Source: Solitalea lacus (GTDB taxonomy: Bacteria > Bacteroidota > Bacteroidia > Sphingobacteriales > Sphingobacteriaceae). Taken from it: a DNA stretch of 64,000 nucleotides. The first letter of the stretch is position 1; each line of letters starts with the position of its first letter. Of the stretch, positions 3,001-20,764 are shown in pieces. The translations under genes and the position numbers were made by a program. The notes below the pieces were generated by a model. The model did no database searches. It worked only from the letters and a program-made list of their open reading frames with translations, and had not been told where the DNA came from. The DNA lies in the NCBI RefSeq assembly GCF_022014595.1, contig NZ_CP091740.1, positions 1 through 64,000 on the forward strand. Direction: 5' to 3'.

Positions 3001-6000
3001 TTTAATTCAGTATTGCCAGCAACATCTGCCCGGTAAGAATATCCGGCCCCTACAGTAAACCCAGTATTACCTGCAGAAAAATTTCCATTGGTAACAAGCT
3101 CCTGCGCCACATTACTAAAAGCTGTCGCGGAGCAACCAGTTGAAGGAATGGTAGCTGTTACTGTATAATTCCCTGCCTGATCAACCAAGATAGATTGAGT
3201 AGTTGCACCTGTACTCCACAAATAGTTTACTGTTGATGGTGATGCATTGGCAGTTAATTGCACTTTTCCTCCACCAAAACAATAATTCGAACTAATAGAT
3301 ACAGTGGGTACGGGATTAACAGTAAGTGTTCTGGAACACGACGAACTCTGACAACCACTGGAATTCGTAATAATTAAACTGTATGTACCTGCTGTGCCGA
3401 TGGTAATAGCTTGTGTTGAAGCAGTAAAACCACTTGGGCCAGTCCATAAATAAGATGTCATTCCTGCTGGAGCAGTCCATGTTGTTGGGCTACCCGAACA
3501 AATTGTAGTTGACCCTCCTGTTATAGAACATACAGGATTTGCGTTAACTGTAACAGCAAAACTTGAAGGAGTTGCGGCTGCACATCCATTTGAATTTGTA
3601 TAATTAACCGTGACAGTTTTAGCCCCACTAGTTGTCCAACTTACAATAATGCTATTTGTATTTGTTCCTGCAGTAATTGTACCGCCCGAACTTACTGTCC
3701 AAGTATAGCCTGACATACCGGCTTCTGTTGTATACACTATACCTGTACTGCCCGCACATACAGCTGCAGAACCACTGATAATTGGTATTGGCCGAGGATT
3801 AACCGTAACTGCTGTTGCCACTGATGTGGCTGAACAGCCATTACCATTTGTTACGGTTACCGAATAGGAACCTGATGCATTGACTGTGATCGCCTGGGAC
3901 GTTGCTCCGTTACTCCATATCCAGGATGAACCGGCTGAAGCCGTTAATGTCACAGAGCCTCCAGCACAGAATGTCGTCGGACCGCCTGCTGTTATTGTTG
4001 CCGTTGGCAATGGATTTACTGTAACTAGCCTTGCTGCTGATGTGGCTGAACAGCCATTACCACCTGTTACGGTTACCGAATAGGAACCTGAAGCATTGAC
4101 TGTGATCGCTTGGGACGTTGCTCCGTTACTCCATAACCAGGATGAACCGGCTGAAGCGGTTAATATCACAGAGCCTCCGGCACAGAATGCCGTCGGACCG
4201 CCTGCTGTAATTGTTGCCGTTGGTAATGGATTTACCGTAATTGATGTTGGCGCTGAGGTGGCTGAACAGCCATTACCTCCGGTTACGGTTACCGAATAGG
4301 AACCTGATGCATTTACTGTGATTGCTTGGGACGTTGCTCCGTTACTCCATAACCAGGATGAACCGGCTGAAGCGGTTAATGTCACAGAACCTCCGGCACA
4401 GAATGTCGTCGGACCGCCCGCTGTGATTGTTGCCGCTGGCAATGGGTTTACAGTAATTACTATTGGCGCTGATGAGGCTGAACAGCCATTTCCGTCACTG
4501 ACCGTTACTGTATAATTTCCTCCTATTGATACCGTGATGGACTGGGATGTTGCTCCGTTACTCCATATCCAGGATGAACCAGCCGAAGCTGTTAATGTTA
4601 CGGAGCCTCCGGCACAGAATGTCGTCGGGCCGCCTGCTGTAATTGTTGCCGTTGGCAATGGGTTTACAGTAATTACTGTTGGTGCTGATGTGGCTGAACA
4701 ACCATTCCCGTCGGTGACCGTTACTGTATAGTTGCCTCCCGTTGATGCCGTGATGGATTGGGAGGTCTGTCCGCTTGACCAAGCATAGGCAGAACCTGCA
4801 CTGGCCGTCAGGATAACGCTACCGCCCTGACAAAAGGTAGTAGGACCGCCTGCTGTAATTGTTGCCGCCGGCAATAGATTTACCGTAACTCCTGTTGGTG
4901 CTGAGGTGGCAGAACAGCCGTTACCATCGCTTACGGTTACCGAATAGGAACCTGATGCATTTACTGTGATTGCTTGGGACGTTGCTCCGTTACTCCATAA
5001 CCAGGATGAACCGGCTGAAGCGGTTAATATCACAGAACCTCCGGCACAGAATGTCGTCGGACCGCCCGCTGTAATTGTTGCCGTTGGCAATGGGTTTACA
5101 GTAATTGCTGTTGGCGCCGATGTGGCTGAACAACCGTTGCCGTCAGTGACCGTTACTGTATAATTGCCCCCCGTTGATACCGTGATGGATTGGGTGGTCT
5201 GTCCGCTTGACCAGGCATAGGCAGAACCAGCACTGGCCGTCAGGATAACGCTACCGCCCTGACAAAAGGTGGTAGGACCGCCTGCTGTAATTGTTGCCGA
5301 TGGTAATGGATTTACAGTAATTACTGTTGGTGCCGATGTGGCTGAACAACCGTTGCCGTCAGTGACCGTTACCGTATAATTTCCTCCTGCTGATACCGTG
5401 ATGGATTGGGTGGTCTGTCCGCTTGACCAGGCATAGACAGAACCGGCATTGGTCGTCAGGATAACGCTACCTCCCTGACAAAAGGTGGTAGGACCGCCCG
5501 CTGTAATTGTTGCCGTTGGTAATGGATTTACCGTAACTGCTGTCGGTACTGATGTAGCAGAACAGCCATTCCCGTCAGTGACCGTTACCGTATAATTTCC
5601 TCCTGTTGATACCGTGATGGACTGGGACGTTGCTCCGTTACTCCATAACCATGAGGAACCGGCTGAAGCGGTTAATGTCACGGAGCCTCCGTCACAGAAT
5701 GTCGTCGAGCCACTTGCAGTAATTGTTGCGGCAGGCAATGAATTTATTGTAACTACTGTGGGCGCTGATGTTGCTGAACAACCATTCCCATCAGTGACCG
5801 TTACTGTATAATTGCCACCCGTTGATACCGTGATGGATTGGGACGTTGCTCCGCTACTCCATAACCAGGATGAACCGGCCGAAGCGGTTAATGTCACAGA
5901 GCCTCCGTCACAGAATGTCGTCGGACCGCCAGTTGTAATTGTTGCCGTTGGCAATGGATTTACCGTAACTGTTGTTGGTGCTGATGTAGCTGAACAGCCG

Positions 6001-7451
6001 TTGCCGTCAGTGACCGTTACTGTATAATTGCCTCCTATTGATACCGTGATGGACTGGGACGTTGCTCCGTTACTCCATAACCAGAATGAACTGGCTGAAG
6101 CAGTTAATGTCACTGAGCCTCCGTCACAGAATGTCGTCGGACCGCCTGCTGTAATTGTTGCAGCAGGCAATGGATATATTGTAACTACTGTGGGCGGTGA
6201 TGTTGCTGAACAACCATTCCCATCGGTGACCGTTACTGTATAATTTCCTCCTGTTGATACCGAGATGGATTGGGTCGTTGCTCCGTTACTCCATAACCAT
6301 GAGGAACCGGCTGAAGCGGTTAATGCCACAGAGCTTCCTTCACAGAATGTCGTCGAGCCACTTGCAGTAATTGTTGCGGCAGGCAATGGATTTATTGTAA
6401 CTACTGTGGCCGCTGATGTTGCTGAACACCCATTCCCTTCAGTGACCGTTACTGTGTAATTTCCTCCTGTTGATACCGTGATGGACTGGGTCGTTGCTCC
6501 GTTACTCCATAACCAGGATGAACCAGCCGATGCTGTTAATGTCACAGAACCTCCATCACAGAATGTCGTCGGACCGCCTGGGGTTATTGTTGCTGCTGGT
6601 AATGGATTTACGGTAACTGCTGTTGGCACTGATGTGGCTGAACAGCCATTCCCGTCAGTGACAGTTACTGTATAATTTCCTCCTGTTAATACCGTGATGG
6701 ATTGGGTCGTGGCTCCGTTACTCCATATCCAGGATGAACCAGCCGAAGCCGTTAATGTTACGGAGCCTCCATCACAGAATGTCGTCGGACCGCCTGCTGT
6801 TATTGTTGCCGCTGGCAATGGATTTACTGTAACTACTGTGGGCACTGATGTGGCTGAACAGCCATTCCCGTCAGTGACCGTTACTGCATAATTGCCTCCA
6901 GTTGATACCGTAATGGATTGGGTCGTGGCTCCATTACTCCATAACCAGGATGAACCGGCCGTAGCGGTTAATATCACAGAGCCTCCTTCACAGAATGTCG
7001 TCGGACCGCCTGCTATTATTGTTGCCGTTGGTAATGGATTTACAACTTGATTGTATTCTAAAGAAGTACTGGGGTCGAATGTTCCTACCTCTCCAGAATA
7101 GGTTGCTTTAATTATATGAGTACCAACTGAAAGTGTATTAATCGTTAATGTCGCTGTGCCTCCTGAAACGGGGGCAGTTCCAAGTGAAGTTGCACCATCA
7201 AAAAATTCAACGGTCCCTGTTACAGAATTTGGAGTAACCGTTGCCCTAAATGTTACATTTGAGCCATTACATGACGGATTAACATCGGACAATAGATCTG
7301 TGGTAGTGATAGTTTGAGCATTGGCAGAAATGCCTAATAGAACAAACCCTAAGATCAAAAATCCAGTAAAAATCGAGAGTAATAATGTAAAGGAGTTACT
7401 CCTTCTTACAGGAAAAAAATCCGTGTTTTTTTTTATTACCAAGAAATACAT
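1..7451 (-). CDS. Giant repeat-containing surface adhesin, C-terminus beyond the window
   Basis: The frame is open from ATG at 7451 to the window edge (2483 codons, no stop), so the C-terminus and any sorting domain are not visible. In order I read: a long signal peptide ending near residue 46 (NAQ); an Ig-like domain, about 53-138; fifteen contiguous 72-residue Ig/PKD-like repeats (3801-7040); more Ig/PKD-like domains; a carbohydrate-binding-like module, about 1449-1622 (motifs LVTNGNFSAGNTGF and GFDHTTGNGNF); further PKD-like domains; a glycine-rich domain (540-1137) opening with FTVPAGVTSITVQAWGAGG; and more Ig-like domains up to the edge. Such architectures belong to very large exported Bacteroidota adhesins, usually T9SS substrates. 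It appears to be its own transcription unit, with a -7 motif at 7514-7521 and a terminator upstream at 8013-8050. A role in adhesion or gliding is inferred from architecture only. Confidence 0.85.
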   Translation of the reverse strand, partial: MYFLVIKKNTDFFPVRRSNSFTLLLSIFTGFLILGFVLLGISANAQTITTTDLLSDVNPSCNGSNVTFRATVTPNSVTGTVEFFDGATSLGTAPVSGGTATLTINTLSVGTHIIKATYSGEVGTFDPSTSLEYNQVVNPLPTATIIAGGPTTFCEGGSVILTATAGSSWLWSNGATTQSITVSTGGNYAVTVTDGNGCSATSVPTVVTVNPLPAATITAGGPTTFCDGGSVTLTASAGSSWIWSNGATTQSITVLTGGNYTVTVTDGNGCSATSVPTAVTVNPLPAATITPGGPTTFCDGGSVTLTASAGSSWLWSNGATTQSITVSTGGNYTVTVTEGNGCSATSAATVVTINPLPAATITASGSTTFCEGSSVALTASAGSSWLWSNGATTQSISVSTGGNYTVTVTDGNGCSATSPPTVVTIYPLPAATITAGGPTTFCDGGSVTLTASASSFWLWSNGATSQSITVSIGGNYTVTVTDGNGCSATSAPTTVTVNPLPTATITTGGPTTFCDGGSVTLTASAGSSWLWSSGATSQSITVSTGGNYTVTVTDGNGCSATSAPTVVTINSLPAATITASGSTTFCDGGSVTLTASAGSSWLWSNGATSQSITVSTGGNYTVTVTDGNGCSATSVPTAVTVNPLPTATITAGGPTTFCQGGSVILTTNAGSVYAWSSGQTTQSITVSAGGNYTVTVTDGNGCSATSAPTVITVNPLPSATITAGGPTTFCQGGSVILTASAGSAYAWSSGQTTQSITVSTGGNYTVTVTDGNGCSATSAPTAITVNPLPTATITAGGPTTFCAGGSVILTASAGSSWLWSNGATSQAITVNASGSYSVTVSDGNGCSATSAPTGVTVNLLPAATITAGGPTTFCQGGSVILTASAGSAYAWSSGQTSQSITASTGGNYTVTVTDGNGCSATSAPTVITVNPLPTATITAGGPTTFCAGGSVTLTASAGSSWIWSNGATSQSITVSIGGNYTVTVSDGNGCSASSAPIVITVNPLPAATITAGGPTTFCAGGSVTLTASAGSSWLWSNGATSQAITVNASGSYSVTVTGGNGCSATSAPTSITVNPLPTATITAGGPTAFCAGGSVILTASAGSSWLWSNGATSQAITVNASGSYSVTVTGGNGCSATSAARLVTVNPLPTATITAGGPTTFCAGGSVTLTASAGSSWIWSNGATSQAITVNASGSYSVTVTNGNGCSATSVATAVTVNPRPIPIISGSAAVCAGSTGIVYTTEAGMSGYTWTVSSGGTITAGTNTNSIIVSWTTSGAKTVTVNYTNSNGCAAATPSSFAVTVNANPVCSITGGSTTICSGSPTTWTAPAGMTSYLWTGPSGFTASTQAITIGTAGTYSLIITNSSGCQSSSCSRTLTVNPVPTVSISSNYCFGGGKVQLTANASPSTVNYLWSTGATTQSILVDQAGNYTVTATIPSTGCSATAFSNVAQELVTNGNFSAGNTGFTVGAGYSYRADVAGNTELNPEGLYGVGSNANNYHSNFWGFDHTTGNGNFMIVNGFPGTPQPIIWQQTITVAPNTTYYFSAWAMSLNSAGNYANLQFAVNGVPIGTTLPLPPGVNNSSNNGWGRFYGTWNSGAATSVVISIIDLQNAAGGNDFGLDDISFGTLSPVTFAAAPSGVACEGGPLNLLANITGGSSPFTYSWTGPNGFSSNLQNPVIPNATAALHNGTYTLSVTDGYGCPISASTSVAVNPVPNIASQITTICSGSTFTLTPPGVPAGTTYTWTAPTGTGFTGGSAQSTGQSSISQTLTNTTSSPVTATYTVTPVAAGCQGNPFTVVVTVDPIATVNAGTSQTLCAGGSINLNGTIGGAATGATWSAPSGTFSNPNSLTSTYTPSIASGNVTLTLTTNDPAGLCPPAISTVVITINQAATVSAGSPITVCQSGSPTAITLSGASVGGSASTGAWSITSGGGSLSSTSQTSNPQNVTYTPAVNYTGTVTLTLTTIDPSGPCPAVSATRTIIVNPAAIVNAGTPQSVCTGGTITLAGVIGGGATGATWSASSGTFSNPNSLTSTYTPTITSGTVTLTLTTNDPDGAGPCPAVSSTVVITVNPLPVTAGATICQGGSGSLTATSPCGSPQTVVEFNSSQVFTVPAGVTSITVQAWGAGGGGGNGNSGDNSRGGGGGGAYSSSTLTVTPGSNINVVVGIGGTPGVNGTSSTFGSTLVVAAGGATPSSSGGSGVGGTVGASTGTIRFAGGSGGTRNDGNGGGGGGGSAFTTVIGNSGQSNPPGTAGGIGGTGTGNGGNGGADGGNGQNGFAPGGGGGGKGDNGSSSGTGANGRVIVTYSSPGAFQWYSQATGGALLFTGSSFNPAAFLPGGNTNSPGIYTFYAECSNAPGCRTATNFTINPAAFVNAGTAQSICAGGAVTLAGTIGGSASNATWNAPSGAFSNASSLTSTYTPSIASGTVILTLTTNDPDGAGPCSAVTSTVVITVDPLPTVTVNSPAVCAGSPATITATPGAAGTY
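540..1137 (-). other. Glycine-rich domain segment of the giant adhesin
   Basis: On the minus strand this part of the adhesin frame starts with VFTVPAGVTSITVQAWGAGG and continues through repeated runs of five to seven glycines mixed with N, S, T and A, ending near GTGANGRVIVTYSSP. The opening motif and ending RVIVTY resemble the glycine-rich secreted domain family (PF21722-like; assignment from memory of the motif). It is flanked on both sides by Ig/PKD-like domains. Confidence 0.7.
3801..7040 (-). repeat. 15 tandem 216-bp units (72-residue Ig/PKD-like repeats)
   Basis: Exactly 15 units of 216 bp (3240 bp) with no length variation, measured from conserved anchors at 3895 and 6919 (3024 bp, 14 x 216). 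A unit translates roughly as NPLPTATI-AGGPTTFC-GGSV-LTASAGSSW-WSNGATTQSI-V--GG-Y-VTVTDGNGC-ATS, with two cysteines. Units at 4665-4880, 5097-5312 and 5313-5528 are a second subtype reading AYAWSSGQTSQSIT in the centre; the rest read WSNGATTQSIT or close variants. Units have diverged by several substitutions each, unlike the 234-bp array in the neighbouring operon. Confidence 0.93.
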
Positions 7452-8061: not shown

Positions 8062-10452
8062 TTATCGCATTATCTCAACAAAACCTGAATAACTAGTCCA
8101 TTTACCTGAATTACCTTTTATTTTGAGCACATAGTAATAGGTTGCAGAAGGAAGGTCTAATCCATTCCAGGTACAATCATAATTCCTGCTCTTGTAAACT
8201 TCGTTACCCCAGCGATTGTAAATATAAATCTCGTTCTCTACCCCTGCTAGTCCATCAATTACAAATGTTTCATTAACACCGTCTCCATTTGGAGTGAATA
8301 CATTCGGAATGAAAACTCCTAATATTAAACGACTATCGGTTGAAGTATTATTGGACATATCTGGATCAAACTGGTTACCTCTAACGGTTGCAGTATTTAC
8401 AATCCTTCCTCCTTTTGTTGACTTAACCTTTAAAGTAAGTGTTTGATGAGAATTTACACTTAAGCCGCCAAGGTTCCAGGTTATTGTTCGGTTAGACAGA
8501 TTAAAGAAGTAAGTACCCGCACTTGCAGAAGCATCTACATATTTTAATTCGGAAGGCAAAACATCCGTTGCAACCACACCGGTAGCATTATTTGCTCCAT
8601 TATTCTCTACAACAATCTGATATTCGAATACTTCGTCTGGTTTAATATCTTTTCCTTGAGAAATTTTCGAAATGGAAAGATCAGCGGTTACACGATTAAC
8701 CATAATTGTAACCGTAGCAATATTACTATTATTTCCGCCATCGCTTACTCGATAAGTGAAGCTATCCGAACCAAAAAAGTTAGCATTAGGAATATACGTA
8801 AACGAACCGTCAGCATTCAATGTTAAAGAGCCATTTGAAGTACTTGTGACCAAATGTGCAGTCAATGGATTTTTCTCAGGATCAGAATCATTCTTTATTA
8901 TGCCAGATGCGGGTTCAATAATTGAAACATTTTCTGTTGTAGAATAACTGTCATTAACTGCAACAGGCACACTATTTACTTGAATTGGATTTACTGTAAA
9001 GCTCACATTTGCAGTAGCACTTGCACCGCAAGGATCGGTAACTTTATAGGTGAATACATCAACTCCAGCAAATCCAGCAGCAGGTGTATAAATAAACGTA
9101 CCATTGGCTTGCAATACAAGTGTTCCTCTATTAGCGTTTGGCTGAACAGAATAGGTTAACAATTCCCCATCAGGATCTGAGTCATTCGTTGCCACTGTAT
9201 TATTAATTGCAGTCCCTGCAGTTGTACTAAAGATCTCTCCAGCTGCTACCGGAGCACGGTTGCTCCTACTAATGGTAATACTACGTGATACCGAGCCACA
9301 AGCATCCGTTACTGTAACTTGATAAACACCTGCATTCATGGCATTTAAATTAGGGGCTGCAATTGAAGAGCCATCTTTTGTCCAAGTTATTACCGGATTA
9401 ACTCCTCCTGAAGTTGTGAAAGTAGCCGCTCCATTAGTACCTGATGAACAAGAAGCATCACGAGATTTGGTGAGAGTAGCGATTAACGCTGCTGGTTGAC
9501 CAACCAACACACTTCCAGTTACTGCCGTACAATTGTTTTTATCAGTTACTCTATAGTTATAAGTACCAGCCACAAGACCACTAAGATTGGCCGTGTTGGC
9601 CGTAAAGCCCGATGGGCCAGTCCAACTATAAACATACGGAGCTGTTCCGCCGCTTACCGAGCCCAGGGTGATCGTTCCATTATTTCCACCATTACAGCTT
9701 ACATCGATGTGGCTGCTGTTGGCTACTGCTATAGCAGAAGGCTCTGTAATAGTTTGCGAGCAAAAAAGCGTAGTGCAATTATCAGCGACCATTAATGAAT
9801 ACGTTCCGGCAGGTAAGTTATTCACCGACGAAGTGGTTCCAACAATTACATTACTACTGTTCTTCCATGTATAATTTACAGTTCCAACTGAATTGGATAC
9901 TGCCCCCGCTGATACCGATCCGGTTAGTGAACCAAAACAAGTTGTATTGGCATGAGAACAAGCAGCCATAGTCATAATAGAATTAACCGTATAGCTTGCT
10001 GTACCACTATAATTACAAGGATCTACTGCAGCACTGGCTGGATACCAATTATCACTTAACGAAGAGATACCATAAGTATAGATACCTGGTATTGAAATGT
10101 TTAAAGGAATGATAATCATAGCATTCTTTCCTGTACGGTTCATTGTAACCCCGTAAGGCAGAGAACTGGCCGTGTTAATAGTTGTACCAACACCGTTTTG
10201 TGTATATGTAAATCTCCATTCAGGAGAACTAACCGTAGAAAGGTCATCGCTGGTAAGGCTAACCGTTAAATTAACCGTTTGAGCCGAACAAGCAGTTGCT
10301 TGAGAGAGTGTAACTTTAGCAGTAGGGGGCATTTTAATATCTACCGTACATTGGCCGAAAGAATAATTAGCACAAAACAATAGTAGTACAGCAACAAAAA
10401 TATTGCTGTACCAAATTGTTCTGTTATTAGCTGTATATATATTACTCTTCAT
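8062..10452 (-). CDS. Secreted multidomain protein with gliding-motility/T9SS type B C-terminal domain
   Basis: A 796-residue protein exported through the type IX system and probably attached to or released from the cell surface. Domain order: signal peptide to about residue 34 (ANYSFGQ); an N-terminal module, about 35-155, shared with the upstream 2593-residue protein; two SprB-like repeats, about 158-318 (NGGNNGTITLGSVSGG type); an Ig-like domain; two cadherin-like/Big_9 domains, about 396-588 (NDSDPDGELLTYSV, FTYKVTDPCG); DUF11, about 590-705 (DLSISKISQG, VVENNGANNATG); and the CHU_C-type sorting domain, 710-796 (FIPNVFTPNGDGVNETF, IYNRWGNEVYKS). It is third in an apparent operon, 45 bp after its neighbour, and the only one of the three with a recognisable sorting domain. 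Ligand and exact role are unknown. Confidence 0.9.
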   Translation of the reverse strand: MKSNIYTANNRTIWYSNIFVAVLLLFCANYSFGQCTVDIKMPPTAKVTLSQATACSAQTVNLTVSLTSDDLSTVSSPEWRFTYTQNGVGTTINTASSLPYGVTMNRTGKNAMIIIPLNISIPGIYTYGISSLSDNWYPASAAVDPCNYSGTASYTVNSIMTMAACSHANTTCFGSLTGSVSAGAVSNSVGTVNYTWKNSSNVIVGTTSSVNNLPAGTYSLMVADNCTTLFCSQTITEPSAIAVANSSHIDVSCNGGNNGTITLGSVSGGTAPYVYSWTGPSGFTANTANLSGLVAGTYNYRVTDKNNCTAVTGSVLVGQPAALIATLTKSRDASCSSGTNGAATFTTSGGVNPVITWTKDGSSIAAPNLNAMNAGVYQVTVTDACGSVSRSITISRSNRAPVAAGEIFSTTAGTAINNTVATNDSDPDGELLTYSVQPNANRGTLVLQANGTFIYTPAAGFAGVDVFTYKVTDPCGASATANVSFTVNPIQVNSVPVAVNDSYSTTENVSIIEPASGIIKNDSDPEKNPLTAHLVTSTSNGSLTLNADGSFTYIPNANFFGSDSFTYRVSDGGNNSNIATVTIMVNRVTADLSISKISQGKDIKPDEVFEYQIVVENNGANNATGVVATDVLPSELKYVDASASAGTYFFNLSNRTITWNLGGLSVNSHQTLTLKVKSTKGGRIVNTATVRGNQFDPDMSNNTSTDSRLILGVFIPNVFTPNGDGVNETFVIDGLAGVENEIYIYNRWGNEVYKSRNYDCTWNGLDLPSATYYYVLKIKGNSGKWTSYSGFVEIMR

Positions 10453-10497: not shown

Positions 10498-13400
10498 TTA
10501 GGGAGTTAACCCATTACAAGTACCAGGACAAGCGTAAGTAGCATCTACTACTTCTACTGTGTATGATCCCCTAATCAACTTATCAAATGTATAGGAGCCA
10601 TTTCCTGTATCAGTCTTGATAATTGTACCTCTTAATTTCAAAATAAATTTAAAACTACCAGATCCTCCACTTGCTGCTACCGTAATTGAACCCGTTGGTG
10701 TTGTTTCATCCTTACAAACCACATTAGTGAATTTGTAAGTGTAAGTGATTGGAGGAAGAACCGTTACATCCAGTTTCGCTCTTGGACCTTCACAGGTACC
10801 AGTGGTCGCGCTCACCCAATATGATGTGGTTCCTGCTGTTGCCGTACTTGGGGTTGGTGCCGTTGCAGTTCCCGTTCCGCCTGTCGCACTGGTGTACCAT
10901 AACAAGTTGCTGCCGGTTGCCGTCAATGCTGTGGCCGCATCGCCTTGACAATACGTTATCGCTGCCACGGTCGGTGCCACTGGAGTTGGATTTACCGTTA
11001 CATCCAGTTTCGCTCTTGGACCTTCACAGGTACCAGTGGTCGCGCTCACCCAATATGATGTGGTTCCTGCTGTTGCCGTACTTGGGGTTGGTGCCGTTGC
11101 AGTTCCCGTTCCGCCTGTCGCACTGGTGTACCATAACAAGTTGCTGCCGGTTGCCGTCAATGCTGTGGCCGCATCGCCTTGACAATACGTTATCGCTGCC
11201 ACGGTCGGTGCCACTGGAGTTGGATTTACCGTTACATCCAGTTTCGCTCTTGGACCTTCACAGGTACCAGTGGTCGCGCTCACCCAATATGATGTGGTTC
11301 CTGCTGTTGCCGTACTTGGGGTTGGTGCCGTTGCAGTTCCCGTTCCGCCTGTCGCACTGGTGTACCATAACAAGTTGCTGCCGGTTGCCGTCAATGCTGT
11401 GGCCGCATCGCCTTGACAATACGTTATCGCTGCCACGGTCGGTGCCACTGGAGTTGGATTTACCGTTACATCCAGTTTCGCTCTTGGACCTTCACAGGTA
11501 CCAGTGGTCGCGCTCACCCAATATGATGTGGTTCCTGCTGTTGCCGTACTTGGGGTTGGTGCCGTTGCAGTTCCCGTTCCGCCTGTCGCACTGGTGTACC
11601 ATAACAAGTTGCTGCCGGTTGCCGTCAATGCTGTGGCCGCATCGCCTTGACAATACGTTATCGCTGCCACGGTCGGTGCCACTGGAGTTGGATTTACCGT
11701 TACATCCAGTTTCGCTCTTGGACCTTCACAGGTACCAGTGGTCGCGCTCACCCAATATGATGTGGTTCCTGCTGTTGCCGTACTTGGGGTTGGTGCCGTT
11801 GCAGTTCCCGTTCCGCCTGTCGCACTGGTGTACCATAACAAGTTGCTGCCGGTTGCCGTCAATGCTGTGGCCGCATCGCCTTGACAATACGTTATCGCCG
11901 CCACGGTCGGTGCCACTGGAGTTGGATTTACCGTTACATCCAGTTTCGCTCTTGGACCTTCACAGGTACCAGTGGTCGCGCTCACCCAATATGATGTGGT
12001 TCCTGCTGTTGCCGTACTTGGGGTTGGTGCCGTTGCAGTTCCCGTTCCGCCTGTTGCACTGGTGTACCATAACAAGTTGCTGCCGGTTGCCGTCAATGCT
12101 GTGGCCGCATCGCCTTGACAATACGTTATCGCTGCCACGGTCGGTGCCACTGGAGTTGGATTTACCGTTACATCCAGTTTCGCTCTTGGACCTTCACAGG
12201 TACCAGTGGTCGCGCTCACCCAATATGATGTGGTTCCTGCTGTTGCCGTACTTGGGGTTGGTGCCGTTGCAGTTCCCGTTCCGCCCGTTGCACTGGTGTA
12301 CCATAACAAGTTGCTGCCGGTTGCCGTCAATGCTGTGGCCGCATCGCCTTGACAATACGTTATCGCTGCCACGGTCGGTGCCACTGGAGTTGGATTTACC
12401 GTTACATCCAGTTTCGCTCTTGGACCTTCACAGGTACCAGTGGTCGCGCTCACCCAATATGATGTGGTTCCTGCTGTTGCCGTACTTGGGGTTGGTGCCG
12501 TTGCAGTTCCCGTTCCGCCTGTCGCACTGGTGTACCATAACAAGTTGCTGCCGGTTGCCGTCAATGCTGTGGCCGCATCGCCTTGACAATACGTTATCGC
12601 TGCCACGGTCGGTGCCACTGGAGTTGGATTTACCGTTACATCCAGTTTCGCTCTTGGACCTTCACAGGTACCAGTGGTCGCGCTCACCCAATATGATGTG
12701 GTTCCTGCTGTTGCCGTACTTGGGGTTGGTGCCGTTGCAGTTCCCGTTCCGCCTGTCGCACTGGTGTACCATAACAAGTTGCTGCCGGTTGCCGTCAATG
12801 CTGTGGCCGCATCGCCTTGACAATACGTTATCGCTGCCACGGTCGGTGCCACTGGAGTTGGATTTACCGTTACATCCAGTTTCGCTCTTGGACCTTCACA
12901 GGTACCAGTGGTCGCGCTCACCCAATATGATGTGGTTCCTGCTGTTGCCGTACTTGGGGTTGGTGCCGTTGCAGTTCCCGTTCCGCCCGTTGCACTGGTG
13001 TACCATAACAAGTTGCTGCCGGTTGCCGTCAATGCTGTGGCCGCATCGCCTTGACAATACGTTATCGCTGCCACGGTCGGTGCCACTGGAGTTGGATTTA
13101 CCGTTACATCCAGTTTCGCTCTTGGACCTTCACAGGTACCAGTGGTCGCGCTCACCCAATATGATGTGGTTCCTGCTGTTGCCGTACTTGGGGTTGGTGC
13201 CGTTGCAGTTCCCGTTCCGCCTGTTGCACTGGTGTACCATAACAAGTTGCTGCCGGTTGCCGTCAATGCTGTGGCCGCATCGCCTTGACAATACGTTATC
13301 GCTGCCACGGTCGGTGCCACTGGAGTTGGATTTACCGTTACATCCAGTTTCGCTCTTGGACCTTCACAGGTACCAGTGGTCGCGCTCACCCAATATGATG

Positions 13401-16400
13401 TGGTTCCTGCTGTTGCCGTACTTGGGGTTGGTGCCGTTGCAGTTCCCGTTCCGCCTGTCGCACTGGTGTACCATAACAAGTTGCTGCCGGTTGCCGTCAA
13501 TGCTGTGGCCGCATCGCCTTGACAATACGTTATCGCTGCCACGGTCGGTGCCACTGGAGTTGGATTTACCGTTACATCCAGTTTCGCTCTTGGACCTTCA
13601 CAGGTACCAGTGGTCGCGCTCACCCAATATGATGTGGTTCCTGCTGTTGCCGTACTTGGGGTTGGTGCCGTTGCAGTTCCCGTTCCGCCTGTCGCACTGG
13701 TGTACCATAACAAGTTGCTGCCGGTTGCCGTCAATGCTGTGGCCGCATCGCCTTGACAATACGTTATCGCTGCCACGGTCGGTGCCACTGGAGTTGGATT
13801 TACCGTTACATCCAGTTTCGCTCTTGGACCTTCACAGGTACCAGTGGTCGCGCTCACCCAATATGATGTGGTTCCTGCTGTTGCCGTACTTGGGGTTGGT
13901 GCCGTTGCAGTTCCCGTTCCGCCTGTCGCACTGGTGTACCATAACAAGTTGCTGCCGGTTGCCGTCAATGCTGTGGCCGCATCGCCTTGACAATACGTTA
14001 TCGCTGCCACGGTCGGTGCCACTGGAGTTGGATTTACCGTTACATCCAGTTTCGCTCTTGGACCTTCACAGGTACCAGTGGTCGCGCTCACCCAATATGA
14101 TGTGGTTCCTGCTGTTGCCGTACTTGGGGTTGGTGCCGTTGCAGTTCCCGTTCCGCCTGTCGCACTGGTGTACCATAACAAGTTGCTGCCGGTTGCCGTC
14201 AATGCTGTGGCCGCATCGCCTTGACAATACGTTATCGCTGCCACGGTCGGTGCCACTGGAGTTGGATTTACCGTTACATCCAGTTTCGCTCTTGGACCTT
14301 CACAGGTACCAGTGGTCGCGCTCACCCAATATGATGTGGTTCCTGCTGTTGCCGTACTTGGGGTTGGTGCCGTTGCAGTTCCCGTTCCGCCTGTCGCACT
14401 GGTGTACCATAACAAGTTGCTGCCGGTTGCCGTCAATGCTGTGGCCGCATCGCCTTGACAATACGTTATCGCTGCCACGGTCGGTGCCACTGGAGTTGGA
14501 TTTACCGTTACATCCAGTTTCGCTCTTGGACCTTCACAGGTACCAGTGGTCGCGCTCACCCAATATGATGTGGTTCCTGCTGTTGCCGTACTTGGGGTTG
14601 GTGCCGTTGCAGTTCCCGTTCCGCCTGTCGCACTGGTGTACCATAACAAGTTGCTGCCGGTTGCCGTCAATGCTGTGGCCGCATCGCCTTGACAATACGT
14701 TATCGCTGCCACGGTCGGTGCCACTGGAGTTGGATTTACCGTTACATCCAGTTTCGCTCTTGGACCTTCACAGGTACCAGTGGTCGCGCTCACCCAATAT
14801 GATGTGGTTCCTGCTGTTGCCGTACTTGGGGTTGGTGCCGTTGCAGTTCCCGTTCCGCCTGTCGCACTGGTGTACCATAACAAGTTGCTGCCGGTTGCCG
14901 TCAATGCTGTGGCCGCATCGCCTTGACAATACGTTATCGCCGCCACGGTCGGTGCCACTGGAGTTGGATTTACCGTTACATCCAGTTTCGCTCTTGGACC
15001 TTCACAGGTACCAGTGGTCGCGCTCACCCAATATGATGTGGTTCCTGCTGTTGCCGTACTTGGGGTTGGTGCCGTTGCAGTTCCCGTTCCGCCCGTTGCA
15101 CTGGTGTACCATAACAAGTTGCTGCCGGTTGCCGTCAATGCTGTGGCCGCATCGCCTTGACAATACGTTATCGCCGCCACGGTCGGTGCCACTGGAGTTG
15201 GATTTACCGTTACATCCAGTTTCGCTCTTGGACCTTCACAGGTACCAGTGGTCGCGCTCACCCAATATGATGTGGTTCCTGCTGTTGCCGTACTTGGGGT
15301 TGGTGCCGTTGCAGTTCCCGTTCCGCCCGTTGCACTGGTGTACCATAACAAGTTGCTGCCGGTTGCCGTCAATGCTGTGGCCGCATCGCCTTGACAATAC
15401 GTTATCGCTGCCACGGTCGGTGCCACTGGAGTTGGATTTACCGTTACATCCAGTTTCGCTCTTGGACCTTCACAGGTACCAGTGGTCGCGCTCACCCAAT
15501 ATGATGTGGTTCCTGCTGTTGCCGTACTTGGGGTTGGTGCCGTTGCAGTTCCCGTTCCGCCTGTCGCACTGGTGTACCATAACAAGTTGCTGCCGGTTGC
15601 CGTCAATGCTGTGGCCGCATCGCCTTGACAATACGTTATCGCTGCCACGGTCGGTGCCACTGGAGTTGGATTTACCGTTACATCCAGTTTCGCTCTTGGA
15701 CCTTCACAGGTACCAGTGGTCGCGCTCACCCAATATGATGTGGTTCCTGCTGTTGCCGTACTTGGGGTTGGTGCCGTTGCAGTTCCCGTTCCGCCTGTTG
15801 CACTGGTGTACCATAACAAGTTGCTGCCGGTTGCCGTCAATGCTGTGGCCGCATCGCCTTGACAATACGTTATCGCTGCCACGGTCGGTGCCACTGGAGT
15901 TGGATTTACCGTTACATCCAGTTTCGCTCTTGGACCTTCACAGGTACCAGTGGTCGCGCTCACCCAATATGATGTGGTTCCTGCTGTTGCCGTACTTGGG
16001 GTTGGTGCCGTTGCAGTTCCCGTTCCGCCCGTTGCACTGGTGTACCATAACAAGTTGCTGCCGGTTGCCGTCAATGCTGTGGCCGCATCGCCTTGACAAT
16101 ACGTTATCGCTGCCACGGTCGGTGCCACTGGAGTTGGATTTACCGTTACATCCAGTTTCGCTCTTGGACCTTCACAGGTACCAGTGGTCGCGCTCACCCA
16201 ATATGATGTGGTTCCTGCTGTTGCCGTACTTGGGGTTGGTGCCGTTGCAGTTCCCGTTCCGCCTGTCGCACTGGTGTACCATAACAAGTTGCTGCCGGTT
16301 GCCGTCAATGCTGTGGCCGCATCGCCTTGACAATACGTTATCGCTGCCACGGTCGGTGCCACTGGAGTTGGATTTACCGTTACATCCAGTTTCGCTCTTG

Positions 16401-18279
16401 GACCTTCACAGGTACCAGTGGTCGCGCTCACCCAATATGATGTGGTTCCTGCTGTTGCCGTACTTGGGGTTGGTGCCGTTGCAGTTCCCGTTCCGCCTGT
16501 CGCACTGGTGTACCATAACAAGTTGCTGCCGGTTGCCGTCAATGCTGTGGCCGCATCGCCTTGACAATACGTTATCGCTGCCACGGTCGGTGCCACTGGA
16601 GTTGGATTTACCGTTACATCCAGTTTCGCTCTTGGACCTTCACAGGTACCAGTGGTCGCGCTCACCCAATATGATGTGGTTCCTGCTGTTGCCGTACTTG
16701 GGGTTGGTGCCGTTGCAGTTCCCGTTCCGCCCGTTGCACTGGTGTACCATAACAAGTTGCTGCCGGTTGCCGTCAATGCTGTGGCCGCATCGCCTTGACA
16801 ATACGTTATCGCTGCCACGGTCGGTGCCACTGGAGTTGGATTTACCGTTACATCCAGTTTCGCTCTTGGACCTTCACAGGTACCAGTGGTCGCGCTCACC
16901 CAATATGATGTGGTTCCTGCTGTTGCCGTACTTGGGGTTGGTGCCGTTGCAGTTCCCGTTCCGCCTGTTGCACTGGTGTACCATAACAAGTTGCTGCCGG
17001 TTGCCGTCAATGCTGTGGCCGCATCGCCTTGACAATACGTTATCGCTGCCACGGTCGGTGCCACTGGAGTTGGATTTACCGTTACATCCAGTTTCGCTCT
17101 TGGACCTTCACAGGTACCAGTGGTCGCGCTCACCCAATATGATGTGGTTCCTGCTGTTGCCGTACTTGGGGTTGGTGCCGTTGCAGTTCCCGTTCCGCCT
17201 GTCGCACTGGTGTACCATAACAAGTTGCTGCCGGTTGCCGTCAATGCTGTGGCCGCATCGCCTTGACAATACGTTATCGCTGCCACGGTCGGTGCCACTG
17301 GAGTTGGATTTACCGTTACATCCAGTTTCGCTCTTGGACCTTCACAGGTACCAGTGGTCGCGCTCACCCAATATGATGTGGTTCCTGCTGTTGCCGTACT
17401 TGGGGTTGGTGCCGTTGCAGTTCCCGTTCCGCCTGTCGCACTGGTGTACCATAACAAGTTGCTGCCGGTTGCCGTCAATGCTGTGGCCGCATCGCCTTGA
17501 CAATACGTTATCGCTGCCACGGTCGGTGCCACTGGAGTTGGATTTACCGTTACATCCAGTTTCGCTCTTGGACCTTCACAGGTACCAGTGGTCGCGCTCA
17601 CCCAATATGATGTGGTTCCTGCTGTTGCCGTACTTGGGGTTGGTGCCGTTGCAGTTCCCGTTCCGCCTGTCGCACTGGTGTACCATAACAAGTTGCTGCC
17701 GGTTGCCGTCAATGCTGTGGCCGCATCGCCTTGACAATACGTTATCGCTGCCACGGTCGGTGCCACTGGAGTTGGATTTACCGTTATTGAAGCCGTTCCA
17801 GCATAATTACACCCATCAACAGGTGTATCATACCAAGTATCACTTAAAAAAGTAAAAGTATAGTTATAAGTATTTGCTATTGTTAGTGTTATAGGAATCG
17901 TTACCGTTGCATTCTTTCCTGACCGGTTGATTGTGGTACCTGCACCGCTTGAAGGTAGGCCCACGGTTTTGACTGTTACTGGTGTTGTACCATCTGAATA
18001 GATAAAAGTCCATTCAGGTGTCAATGTCGACTCATCATCACTCGTCAGGTTAACCACTAAGTTAAATGGTTGACCAGAACAAATTGACGCCGGTAAAGGA
18101 ATGAACTTTGCCGTTGGTGGCTCCTTGATGGTGATTGGACAAACCTGCCCGAAGGAATAATTTGCTAAAAACAACAAAAGTGCCGTAATTATTAAACTAC
18201 TGCTCCGTTTTGCTTTTTTGATGATTTGGTAAATAATTCCCATATTATAGCTATAATACTTTTTACTTTTTAAACTCAT
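10498..18279 (-). CDS. Giant secreted protein with 30 identical Ig_7-like repeats
   Basis: A 2593-residue protein. ATG at 18279 gives MSLKSKKYYSYNMG; the in-frame ATG at 18243 (MGIIYQIIKK) is an alternative start and leaves the hydrophobic signal segment ending ANYSFGQ intact. Residues about 46-165 form a module homologous to the N-terminus of the 796-residue protein (shared pattern PPTAK, LTSDD, PEW-F-Y, R-GKNA, LSD-WY, CNY-GTAS). Then come 30 units of 78 residues with identical amino-acid sequence (motifs YCQGDAATALTATGSNLLWY, TTSYWVSATTGTCEGPRAKL), resembling the Ig_7 CHU_C-associated fold. The last 86 residues form an SprB-like module ending CPGTCNGLTP. No T9SS sorting domain is visible. 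The start lies 4 bp after the preceding stop, so translation is probably coupled. Likely an extended stalk or fibre; this is inference. Confidence 0.88.
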   Translation of the reverse strand: MSLKSKKYYSYNMGIIYQIIKKAKRSSSLIITALLLFLANYSFGQVCPITIKEPPTAKFIPLPASICSGQPFNLVVNLTSDDESTLTPEWTFIYSDGTTPVTVKTVGLPSSGAGTTINRSGKNATVTIPITLTIANTYNYTFTFLSDTWYDTPVDGCNYAGTASITVNPTPVAPTVAAITYCQGDAATALTATGSNLLWYTSATGGTGTATAPTPSTATAGTTSYWVSATTGTCEGPRAKLDVTVNPTPVAPTVAAITYCQGDAATALTATGSNLLWYTSATGGTGTATAPTPSTATAGTTSYWVSATTGTCEGPRAKLDVTVNPTPVAPTVAAITYCQGDAATALTATGSNLLWYTSATGGTGTATAPTPSTATAGTTSYWVSATTGTCEGPRAKLDVTVNPTPVAPTVAAITYCQGDAATALTATGSNLLWYTSATGGTGTATAPTPSTATAGTTSYWVSATTGTCEGPRAKLDVTVNPTPVAPTVAAITYCQGDAATALTATGSNLLWYTSATGGTGTATAPTPSTATAGTTSYWVSATTGTCEGPRAKLDVTVNPTPVAPTVAAITYCQGDAATALTATGSNLLWYTSATGGTGTATAPTPSTATAGTTSYWVSATTGTCEGPRAKLDVTVNPTPVAPTVAAITYCQGDAATALTATGSNLLWYTSATGGTGTATAPTPSTATAGTTSYWVSATTGTCEGPRAKLDVTVNPTPVAPTVAAITYCQGDAATALTATGSNLLWYTSATGGTGTATAPTPSTATAGTTSYWVSATTGTCEGPRAKLDVTVNPTPVAPTVAAITYCQGDAATALTATGSNLLWYTSATGGTGTATAPTPSTATAGTTSYWVSATTGTCEGPRAKLDVTVNPTPVAPTVAAITYCQGDAATALTATGSNLLWYTSATGGTGTATAPTPSTATAGTTSYWVSATTGTCEGPRAKLDVTVNPTPVAPTVAAITYCQGDAATALTATGSNLLWYTSATGGTGTATAPTPSTATAGTTSYWVSATTGTCEGPRAKLDVTVNPTPVAPTVAAITYCQGDAATALTATGSNLLWYTSATGGTGTATAPTPSTATAGTTSYWVSATTGTCEGPRAKLDVTVNPTPVAPTVAAITYCQGDAATALTATGSNLLWYTSATGGTGTATAPTPSTATAGTTSYWVSATTGTCEGPRAKLDVTVNPTPVAPTVAAITYCQGDAATALTATGSNLLWYTSATGGTGTATAPTPSTATAGTTSYWVSATTGTCEGPRAKLDVTVNPTPVAPTVAAITYCQGDAATALTATGSNLLWYTSATGGTGTATAPTPSTATAGTTSYWVSATTGTCEGPRAKLDVTVNPTPVAPTVAAITYCQGDAATALTATGSNLLWYTSATGGTGTATAPTPSTATAGTTSYWVSATTGTCEGPRAKLDVTVNPTPVAPTVAAITYCQGDAATALTATGSNLLWYTSATGGTGTATAPTPSTATAGTTSYWVSATTGTCEGPRAKLDVTVNPTPVAPTVAAITYCQGDAATALTATGSNLLWYTSATGGTGTATAPTPSTATAGTTSYWVSATTGTCEGPRAKLDVTVNPTPVAPTVAAITYCQGDAATALTATGSNLLWYTSATGGTGTATAPTPSTATAGTTSYWVSATTGTCEGPRAKLDVTVNPTPVAPTVAAITYCQGDAATALTATGSNLLWYTSATGGTGTATAPTPSTATAGTTSYWVSATTGTCEGPRAKLDVTVNPTPVAPTVAAITYCQGDAATALTATGSNLLWYTSATGGTGTATAPTPSTATAGTTSYWVSATTGTCEGPRAKLDVTVNPTPVAPTVAAITYCQGDAATALTATGSNLLWYTSATGGTGTATAPTPSTATAGTTSYWVSATTGTCEGPRAKLDVTVNPTPVAPTVAAITYCQGDAATALTATGSNLLWYTSATGGTGTATAPTPSTATAGTTSYWVSATTGTCEGPRAKLDVTVNPTPVAPTVAAITYCQGDAATALTATGSNLLWYTSATGGTGTATAPTPSTATAGTTSYWVSATTGTCEGPRAKLDVTVNPTPVAPTVAAITYCQGDAATALTATGSNLLWYTSATGGTGTATAPTPSTATAGTTSYWVSATTGTCEGPRAKLDVTVNPTPVAPTVAAITYCQGDAATALTATGSNLLWYTSATGGTGTATAPTPSTATAGTTSYWVSATTGTCEGPRAKLDVTVNPTPVAPTVAAITYCQGDAATALTATGSNLLWYTSATGGTGTATAPTPSTATAGTTSYWVSATTGTCEGPRAKLDVTVNPTPVAPTVAAITYCQGDAATALTATGSNLLWYTSATGGTGTATAPTPSTATAGTTSYWVSATTGTCEGPRAKLDVTVNPTPVAPTVAAITYCQGDAATALTATGSNLLWYTSATGGTGTATAPTPSTATAGTTSYWVSATTGTCEGPRAKLDVTVNPTPVAPTVAAITYCQGDAATALTATGSNLLWYTSATGGTGTATAPTPSTATAGTTSYWVSATTGTCEGPRAKLDVTVLPPITYTYKFTNVVCKDETTPTGSITVAASGGSGSFKFILKLRGTIIKTDTGNGSYTFDKLIRGSYTVEVVDATYACPGTCNGLTP
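10759..17778 (-). repeat. 30 tandem 234-bp units, contiguous and nearly identical
   Basis: Exactly 30 x 234 bp = 7020 bp, anchored on CGCCTTGACA at 10941 and 17727 (6786 bp, 29 periods). Every unit encodes the same 78 residues. I see variation at three positions only, all third codon positions and synonymous: an Ala codon GCA/GCG near the start of the unit, and a neighbouring Thr ACA/ACG and Ala GCG/GCA pair in the middle. Counted by hand, one unit has 131 G+C of 234 (56%), well above the AT-rich genes around it. There are no spacers, so this is not a CRISPR array. Confidence 0.97.
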
Positions 18280-18283
18280 TATA

Positions 18284-20764
18284 TTACTGACAAACTGTTG
18301 AACAGCCTGTGTTTATATCCCTAATTGTTATTGTATAAACTCCCTTACCAACTCCTGTAAATTGATAATTACTGACGCTAGCTCCTGGACTAACATTTTG
18401 CACTATTGTGGCACCTGATTTTAGTATAAACTCATACTCCCCAGAACCGCCACTTGTTACTGTTGCCGTAATAGTACCTGCAGAACCACCTTTGCACTTC
18501 ACATTGGTAAACGCCGTAGTAAAAACTATAGGAGCATAAATCGAAACAGCAATCGGATAGGATATACTAACACATCCTGTAACACTATTGCGTACTGTTA
18601 ATTGCCCATTATATGTACCTGCAGCAGCCGTAGCAGCAACAGCAATACTGATAGAGCTTACTGGCAACGTTTGATTATTTATGTCTGCAAAGCCTGCGGC
18701 ATTAGCAGCTGCATCGAAATCAATGCTGTATTGATCCGACAAACCTGTTGTTGCCGAATAAGTGAGATTTGCACTTGTTACTCCCAGACAAATTGAGGGG
18801 TTTGTTCCTAAAGTAACTGTCGGAGTAGGGTTCACTGTAATCGTTCCAGTGGCATTAACCGAACCGCAGCCGCCCGTTAGCGGGATGGTATAACTGAACG
18901 GTCCCGAGGCTGACGGCGTTCCGCTGATCGTAATGGTGTTGGCTGCCCAGCTGGCCGTTACACCAGATGGCAAGCCCGTGGCCGCACCGATTCCCGTAGC
19001 TCCGGTGGTGGTGTGGGTGATATTGGTCATGGCCGTACTGATGCACACTGTTGGGCTCGAAGAGGCTGCACTCACTGTATTGGCCGGGGTCACCGTGATG
19101 GTGCCCGTCGCACTGGCCGAACCACAACCACCCGTTAGCGGGATGGTATAACTGAACGGTCCCGAGACTGTCGGCGTTCCGCTGATCGTAATGGTGTTGG
19201 CTGCCCAGCTGGCCGTTACGCCAGATGGCAAGCCCGTGGCCGCACCGATTCCCGTAGCTCCGGTGGTGGTGTGGGTGATATTGGTCATGGCCGTACTGAT
19301 GCACACTGTTGGGCTCGAAGAGGCTGCGCTAACTGTATTGGCCGGGGTTACCGTGATGGTGCCCGTCGCACTGGCCGAACCGCAGCCGCCCGTTAGCGGG
19401 ATGGTATAACTGAACGGTCCCGAGGCTGTCGGCGTTCCGCTGATCGTAATGGTGTTGGCTGCCCAGCTGGCCGTTACACCAGATGGCAAGCCCGTGGCCG
19501 CACCGATTCCCGTAGCTCCGGTGGTGGTGTGCGTGATATTGGTCATGGCCGTACTGATGCACACTGTTGGGCTCGATGACGCAGGGCCAGCAGTGTTGAT
19601 TGGAGTCACAATGATCGTCCTTGTTGCACTTACTGCAGAACATGCTCCGGGCGCGTTTGTAGTTAAAGTTAAGGTAACCGTGCCGCTAAAATTTGCAGCC
19701 GGTGTATAGGTTTCCGTAGCCGGAGTACCTGTTTGAGCAGAACTACTCAGGGTTCCTCCTCCTGAAGTGATAGACCAAGCCCCTGTAGTTGCCCCACCTC
19801 CGATACTTGCACCGCTTAGCGTGATGGCAGAAGGAGTAGCTGATTGACAGACTGTGTTTGGTCCTCCTGCGTTCACTGTTGGTTTAGCAGTGACTGTAAA
19901 AGTCAAAGTCTGCGTATTCTCATATGCGTTAGAACCAGTCCCTACGCTAGCTTTCAATATCGCAGAATAGGTACCTGCAATTGCTGGTGATATTGAAGGA
20001 GGATTTTGCTGATTTGAAGTAGTAACAACATTATTGGGATTTGTAATTGTCCAACTATATGTAGGAGTAGCTTCTACATAGCCTGAATAATTACCTAATA
20101 ATTCTATTATTCCACCTTCACAAACTGGATTTTTTAAGGTAGGTTCGGCTTTTATCGTACCTCCTTGAGTCATTAATTCTGCAAAAGTATAATCTGAATT
20201 ACCTCCTGCACAAACTGCATAACTCGTTCCTCCGATATAAATATCCTCGTTATTGTTACAGTCACCAGTCAAGCCACCAGTTGAAACTCTAATCACTGCG
20301 TTATTTGGAAGACTTAATTTAACTTTATCCGTAAACTTTATGGTAGCATAAGGAGAGAGAGAAGGCGTTACAATTAAATTTTGTGTATTTATACCAATAT
20401 TAACCTGAGAACTTGAGGTTCCTATTAATTCCAAAGTACCCTTAACCGTGACCGTACCCATTGGCTGAGTAGAAATTGTTGTTGAAATTGTCACCGTGGA
20501 TCCTGCAACTATTTCAACAGCATAACTTCCTGATGATGCACCCGGGTAGGTACTAGCAGCTACCCATGAAGTTCCATTGTAAGTTTCCCATGAGGATGAA
20601 ACATTCCACGCTCCCCCCGAAGCCGTTGATCTAAAATCGCCAGCATTTTGCGCGTAAGAATTGATGCTTAAACTAAAGAAAATAAGTATTAATAACACCC
20701 GGAGTAGGTGCCTTATTGTGATTATATGTATGAAGTTAAATGTTAGAGTAAAAGTCCTAATCAT
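18284..20764 (-). CDS. Secreted repeat protein, first gene of the surface operon
   Basis: An 826-residue protein. A long hydrophobic leader ends near residue 39 (SINSYAQ), followed by [12 protein letters not shown] and a strand-rich region of a type common at the start of Bacteroidota secreted proteins. A PKD-like domain near 19600-19895 ([22 protein letters not shown]) closely resembles one in the giant adhesin at about 1500-1795. Three 86-residue repeats follow (18806-19579), then another Ig-like domain, then an SprB-like module of about 80 residues ending CSTVCQ. That terminal module matches the C-terminus of the next gene (shared FTNV-CK, GGSG, FILK, G-YT). No T9SS sorting domain is recognisable. 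The stop is 4 bp from the next ATG. Function unknown; surface structure inferred from context. Confidence 0.87.
18806..19579 (-). repeat. Three tandem 258-bp units (86 residues each)
   Basis: Three consecutive units with exact 258-bp spacing (matching positions at 18933, 19191 and 19449). Each encodes [20 protein letters not shown] followed by [20 protein letters not shown] and an Ig-like [18 protein letters not shown] tail. Amino-acid changes are few (TAS/TVS/SAS), and the last unit diverges at its end into NPTPTVTLG. Confidence 0.93.

Follow-up and report, generated by a model that had tools for sequence, protein, structure and literature searches.

Genes and features of the locus

The window, i.e. 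the whole 64,000-nucleotide stretch of Solitalea lacus DNA that was analysed, contains a locus in which, in coding direction, an 826-aa ORF is followed by a 2593-aa ORF carrying a long repeat array, then by a 796-aa ORF and finally by a giant ORF of 8659 aa. The features are as follows.

3..7451, − strand: 5′ part, in the window, of the giant ORF (8659 aa)
3796-7043, − strand: 216-bp array in the giant ORF, 15 copies, 82%
8062..10452, − strand: ORF, 796 aa, with SprB repeat, Big_9/cadherin-like, DUF11 and CHU_C (T9SS type B sorting) domains
8074..8313, − strand: CHU_C domain of the 796-aa ORF, residues 714-793
10498..18279, − strand: ORF, 2593 aa (array ORF), with signal-peptide-like start, N-terminal domain, array and SprB-like C-terminal cap
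10498..10764, − strand: SprB-like C-terminal cap and stop of the array ORF
10760..17779, − strand: array of 30 Ig_7 units in tandem (234 bp or 78 aa per unit), with 3 silent polymorphic positions
17785..18279, − strand: leader and N-terminal domain of the array ORF, 165 aa
10749..17855, + strand: antisense open frame, 2368 aa, not taken as a gene
18284..20764, − strand: ORF, 826 aa, upstream of the array ORF, with an SprB-like cap at its end
18859..19576, − strand: 258-bp repeat in the 826-aa ORF, 2.8 copies, 96% matches

The genome is assembled as one 4.40-Mb contig, and the contig ends join in frame inside the giant ORF, which spans the contig origin to contig position 4383702 (window 3-7451, contig 4383702-4402230), ends with CHU_C and also carries a 231-bp array (69 copies, 82%). 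With 50% identity between their N-terminal domains, the array ORF and the 796-aa ORF look like tandem paralogues. The signal-peptide-like start of the array ORF was judged by eye. The antisense frame across the array was rejected as a gene and is presumably a by-product of the repeat, whose unit has no stops in that frame.

SprA_N, a core family of the type IX secretion system (T9SS), was found in all four genomes of the genus searched. At the locus, two genes carry a T9SS type B sorting domain, namely the 796-aa ORF and the giant ORF, the latter by its CHU_C match; the array ORF gave no CHU_C, TIGR04131 or TIGR04183 match at E 0.001, and no T9SS sorting domain was found in the 826-aa ORF at the same threshold. 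An SprB-type gliding adhesin combines SprB repeats and CHU_C on one protein and has an SprF gene nearby. The array ORF departs from this on each count: its cap reaches a score of 22.1 where the SprB cut-off is 28, it has no CHU_C, and the eight PorP_SprF matches of the genome all lie elsewhere, with none at the locus. Compared with SprB of Flavobacterium johnsoniae, which is described as a T9SS type B cargo adhesin for gliding in PMC12635249, the locus shares SprB-type modules and has CHU_C in two genes, but the array ORF differs in lacking CHU_C and a neighbouring PorP_SprF gene.

Two family names returned for the array ORF were set aside. Phosphatidylserine decarboxylase came from three NCBIfam models, all scoring under their own cut-offs, and NF047986 (TomO C-terminal domain) scored 34.1 against a cut-off of 27 by adding up stretches of 19-34 residues, none of which passed alone. 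Both names are taken as artefacts of the Ala/Thr/Pro-rich repeat, and they illustrate the risk that such a protein is wrongly annotated through short repetitive stretches.

An SprB-like module lying near a cysteine and followed by the stop was observed in four ORFs at the locus, in three genomes (window 10498-10764, window 18284-18550, L015 1-336 and L109 7595-7867), with no known T9SS sorting domain seen in these ORFs. The idea that this cap is a special C-terminal export signal was rejected: among the 23 loci listed (L161-L183) the module stands at the stop in three, all of them at this locus in the genus, and no match in the other 20 listed loci, many of which are cut, ends within 15 residues of a stop, the one in L171 ending 24 residues before it.

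Uniformity of the 30 units and their silent variants

Tandem Repeats Finder (TRF) delimited the array at 10760-17786 with a period of 234, 30.0 copies and 99% matches. The protein has a strict periodicity of 78 residues from residue 166 to 2507 with no exception, all 30 units being the same in protein, and Pfam recognised 30 Ig_7 (PF19081) stretches with a protein score of 1005 bits versus the curated cut-off of 27.3. By reading every unit (30 of 30), only three of the 234 positions were found to vary, all of them A/G differences at third codon positions and all silent: unit index 30 has A in 27 and G in 3 units (Ala GCA/GCG), index 108 has G in 20 and A in 10 (Ala GCG/GCA), and index 111 has A in 24 and G in 6 (Thr ACA/ACG). 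The earlier note on this DNA, made from the letters alone, had described exactly this protein identity and these three codon positions, and reading all units added no further difference; its array coordinates (10759-17778) lie one base from ours, which is a choice of phase. It had also put the GC content of a unit at 56%, above the surroundings, and the measured values agree (56.0% versus 41.2% for the window). This high GC is mostly due to amino-acid composition (GC2 = 0.753), plus a modest excess in GC3 (0.455, where codon usage in 13 other ORFs of the window predicts 0.356), and a foreign origin of the unit on the grounds of GC was rejected accordingly.

The three positions define five haplotypes (positions 30, 108 and 111: a = AGA, b = AAA, c = AAG, d = GAG, e = GGA), which in coding order read aaabcaacbacdeaaaaaabcaacbeaaaa. 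In this order, units 17-29 repeat units 1-16 minus units 10-12, and unit 30 is an extra a (16 + 13 + 1). A one-gap block match equally long and informative occurred in none of 3000 shuffles, and an ungapped nine-unit match such as that of units 1-9 with units 17-25 at the three sites occurred in 11 of 20000. These figures overstate the case, since the shuffles assume interchangeable units and the gapped statistic was drawn up once the pattern had been seen. All four combinations are present at the site pairs 30/108 and 30/111, and three at 108/111, pointing either to exchange inside units or to repeated mutation.

No singleton occurs among the variants in the 7020 bp of the array, and its first and last units (1 and 30) have the consensus sequence. 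Singletons and non-silent changes were present in all four other arrays of the same genome with at least five units measured: 21 and 50, respectively, in the 216-bp array (12 of 15 units used), 20 and 7 in a 996-bp array (5 units), 14 and 8 in a 1077-bp array (5 units), and 47 and 29 in a 228-bp array (11 of 14 units used). Having neither, the 30-unit array looks fresher than any of the others measured in this genome. A fresh uniform array is not unique within the genus, as a 219-bp array of the congener G002 has zero differences among the six of its 11 units that stay in register.

The giant gene contains a related 234-bp array of 4.1 copies, 98% uniform inside, which shares 83-86% DNA identity with the 30-unit array. 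Between the two, dS was 0.436 and dN 0.102 (ratio 0.23), and with dN well under dS the unit protein is constrained; the two arrays separated long ago, with constraint kept at the protein level, each being nearly uniform. Inside the 30-unit array a sign of constraint is weak, as all three changes would be silent by chance with P about 0.020 if all changes are equally likely and 0.038 for transitions. The selection for a uniform stalk that the earlier note had suggested thus finds support between the arrays and weakly within the array.

Predicted fold and known repeat proteins

A two-unit model built with 43 related pairs had a mean pLDDT of 97.0 and a pTM of 0.80 and comprised beta strands only, so that an Ig-like fold of the unit is predicted confidently; along its full length it aligns with tandem Ig chains. 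A model of the C-terminal stretch from its single sequence was poor (pLDDT 38.5) and was discarded. By a PDB search with the unit profile, one distinct sequence was matched, GhpA of Aureispira sp. CCB-QB1 (9flp and seven further entries), with E 6.4e-150 over 31 stretches; a single-sequence search of the unit also gave 9eru_G (E 0.0032). Foldseek and VIA-align 2 both ranked eight GhpA fragments first (Z 8.4-9.9, the next at 7.8), with rmsd of 3.4-4.9 over 143-149 residues and 19-27% identity to the unit. GhpA consists in this part of homologous tandem Ig-like domains, and the match supports the domain fold and homology of the unit; it speaks for the fold and not for a grappling-hook function because no other solved protein clearly matched the domain. 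No PDB sequence match was found for the N-terminal domain of the array ORF at E 0.1, and no adhesive domain was recognised.

The Periscope proteins, with SasG, Rib, Sgo_0707, CdrA and Esp among those named, have been described as surface proteins in which a single chain forms a rod of folded domains that stand in tandem and are highly identical (PMC8201768, PMC9704523). In these papers the DNA identity of the repeats is proposed to permit both their gain and their loss, and the NCTC3000 set is given as holding 1,576 proteins with long, highly identical repeats. The 30 identical tandem units, which by the two-unit model are predicted to fold individually (pLDDT 97.0), resemble such proteins, but the Periscope examples given there are sortase-anchored or of autotransporter type, whereas the array ORF sits in a T9SS-type locus. 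Further marks of Periscope proteins are domain termini at opposite ends, a repeat number that differs among strains, and surface attachment with the functional domain at the distal end. The string 'Bacteroid' is absent from the main text of both papers, and among the papers listed for repeats in T9SS or Bacteroidetes surface proteins no title or abstract opening describes such an array, which is not proof of absence.

A further precedent is region II of MpAFP from Marinomonas primoryensis, reported in PMC4083281 as about 120 DNA-identical, Ig-like repeats of 104 residues proposed to act as an extender rod, four of which span about 190 Å. MpAFP differs in being an RTX adhesin with calcium between its domains, while the array unit has two cysteines and Pro-rich linkers. 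If a unit measured about 4 nm, a value estimated with MpAFP as a guide, the array would be roughly 120 nm long. Near-identical repeat stalks are therefore already known, and by analogy the array would work likewise; with it, the bacterial stalks made of identical repeats gain an Ig_7 case that lies in a T9SS-type adhesin locus.

Probable origin and role of the array

The flanking genes of the locus, a DUF4270 gene and, at the opposite side, an LPG_synthase-like gene, were found in all three congeners. In G002, whose genome is a single contig, the locus has a 2243-aa ORF, and the CHU_C gene region holds eleven 219-bp repeats at 99% (L109 3255-5672), three copies of which are one base longer and shift the frame, reflecting either a sequence error or a really broken gene. 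In G001, whose contig order at the locus (C23, C65, C4) was inferred, a cap 75% identical to that of the array ORF and having the same end is preceded by a different sequence. The 796-aa gene has a homologue in G001, 72% identical at the N-terminus, which carries 237-bp repeats at 95-97%, an array such as TRF does not find in the 796-aa ORF itself. The contigs of G003 end at the locus, one edge being a G001-like unit, and no array is readable. Among 60 genomes, the N-terminal domain of the array ORF was matched in four, namely its own, G001 and two weak ones; the G001 match (49-51%) is to the paralogue, and no G001 counterpart of the array ORF's own domain came up. The earlier note had held that diverged repeats at this locus in independent isolates would refute its reading of recent amplification. 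Other repeats do occur there at the level of species (G001 and G002), and they argue against a uniform Ig_7 stalk kept for long, not against recent amplification.

We consider it probable that the array expanded recently by unequal recombination and that it encodes the extensible stalk, similar to that of Periscope proteins, of a T9SS adhesin locus. The product of the 2593-aa ORF would be exported and is probably a surface protein, the middle of which would consist of 30 identical Ig-like domains, preceded by a small N-terminal domain and followed by an SprB-like cap. Very recent growth may have proceeded by unequal recombination, presumably dependent on RecA, between 234-bp units of the same sequence. 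Some 16 units would have been duplicated as a block, with three units lost from one copy, and exchanges inside units may have reshuffled three older silent variants. The earlier note's proposal of recent amplification by recombination is hence supported by the missing singletons, the consensus end units, the block-duplication pattern and the four-combination site pairs, and recent recombination is the likely builder of the array. Because 234 is a multiple of 3, gain or loss of whole units preserves the frame, and with DNA-identical units the length of the stalk would be easily changed. The number of units may vary between strains, as the earlier note had suggested; the genomes compared here are one per species. 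Its likely role would be that of a length-tunable, rod-shaped extender holding the N-terminal domain off the cell, as in Periscope proteins. With the silent variants as a ready-made barcode, one could trace directly how units are gained, lost and exchanged.

A long-term concerted evolution, in which an old array was kept uniform by steady gene conversion and selection for a uniform rod, would also yield all four combinations at two site pairs, and it agrees with the giant-gene array being 98% uniform inside and only 83-86% identical to the 30-unit array, as well as with the protein constraint between the two. End units of old arrays, however, tend to escape homogenisation, while here they are consensus with no singleton in 7020 bp, and G001 has a different sequence ahead of the same cap and no counterpart found of the array ORF's N-terminal domain; we regard this explanation as unlikely. 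Still a little less probable is that the assembly itself accounts for part of the unit count or of the 16-unit block repeat, through expansion or through polishing that erased differences. A duplicated assembly segment of 16 units could leave a similar pattern, with units 1-9 equal to units 17-25 at the three sites, and the contigs of the draft congeners G001 and G003 end inside or beside the locus, which is therefore hard to assemble. On the other hand, the second block lacks three units and so is not a plain copy, other arrays of the same assembly retain singletons, showing that polishing did not erase variation everywhere, and the genome came out as a single contig closing in frame within another repetitive gene.

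A capture filament resembling a grappling hook, as in Aureispira GhpA, has very little probability. The T9SS-secreted heptameric hooks of ixotrophy covered by the review PMC11205867 presumably are GhpA, being linked to it through PDB titles, and the unit profile matches no PDB sequence other than GhpA, which is also the source of the top eight structures in Foldseek and VIA-align 2. This match concerns the fold, however, and neither the N-terminal domain, the cap, the 796-aa ORF nor the 826-aa ORF has a sequence match in GhpA, which is 5898 residues long versus 2593 for the array ORF.

Returning to the recently expanded stalk, the comparison of congeners suggests that it is the uniform array that recurs at the locus and not its sequence. 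Tentatively, the frame of the locus may stay constant while the internally near-uniform arrays that fill it differ between species (30 x 234 bp here, 237-bp repeats in G001, 11 x 219 bp in G002); put differently and no less tentatively, the locus may time and again acquire a new near-uniform array, built from any repeat available. If so, selection would keep a recombinable array, i.e. an adjustable stalk length, and not any particular repeat sequence, and stalks would be replaced recurrently, with a turnover perhaps quick enough to watch in culture.

By defining a uniform array as at least three copies at no less than 95%, none was found in 40 named Ig_7 loci, in 20 long CHU_C ORFs (about 2000 aa and upwards) taken from 14 genomes of other genera, or in 10 further regions inside the genus, counts that are biased because many assemblies are drafts, which may break at such arrays; the last of them counts against a genus-wide habit. 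Near-uniform arrays do occur elsewhere in the window genome (G000), at L114 4586-9811 and 12949-19173 (996 bp x 5.2 and 1077 bp x 5.8, both 99%) and at L116 4235-7565 (228 bp x 14.6, 96%), and further ones in G002 (1050 bp, 98%) and G003 (975 bp, 96%).

Two minor observations were made in the searches. Among PDB entries, the cap profile weakly matched a neck whiskers protein as well as phage decoration proteins (E 0.0099-0.018), and the 796-aa ORF matched phage structural proteins in the PDB (best E 2.2e-5). Adhaeribacter aquaticus (L155, from the genome of L044, about 3878-3885 kb) has a row of Ig_7 units, with identities to the query of up to 71%, that extends over open frames of 1383, 556 and 972 aa.
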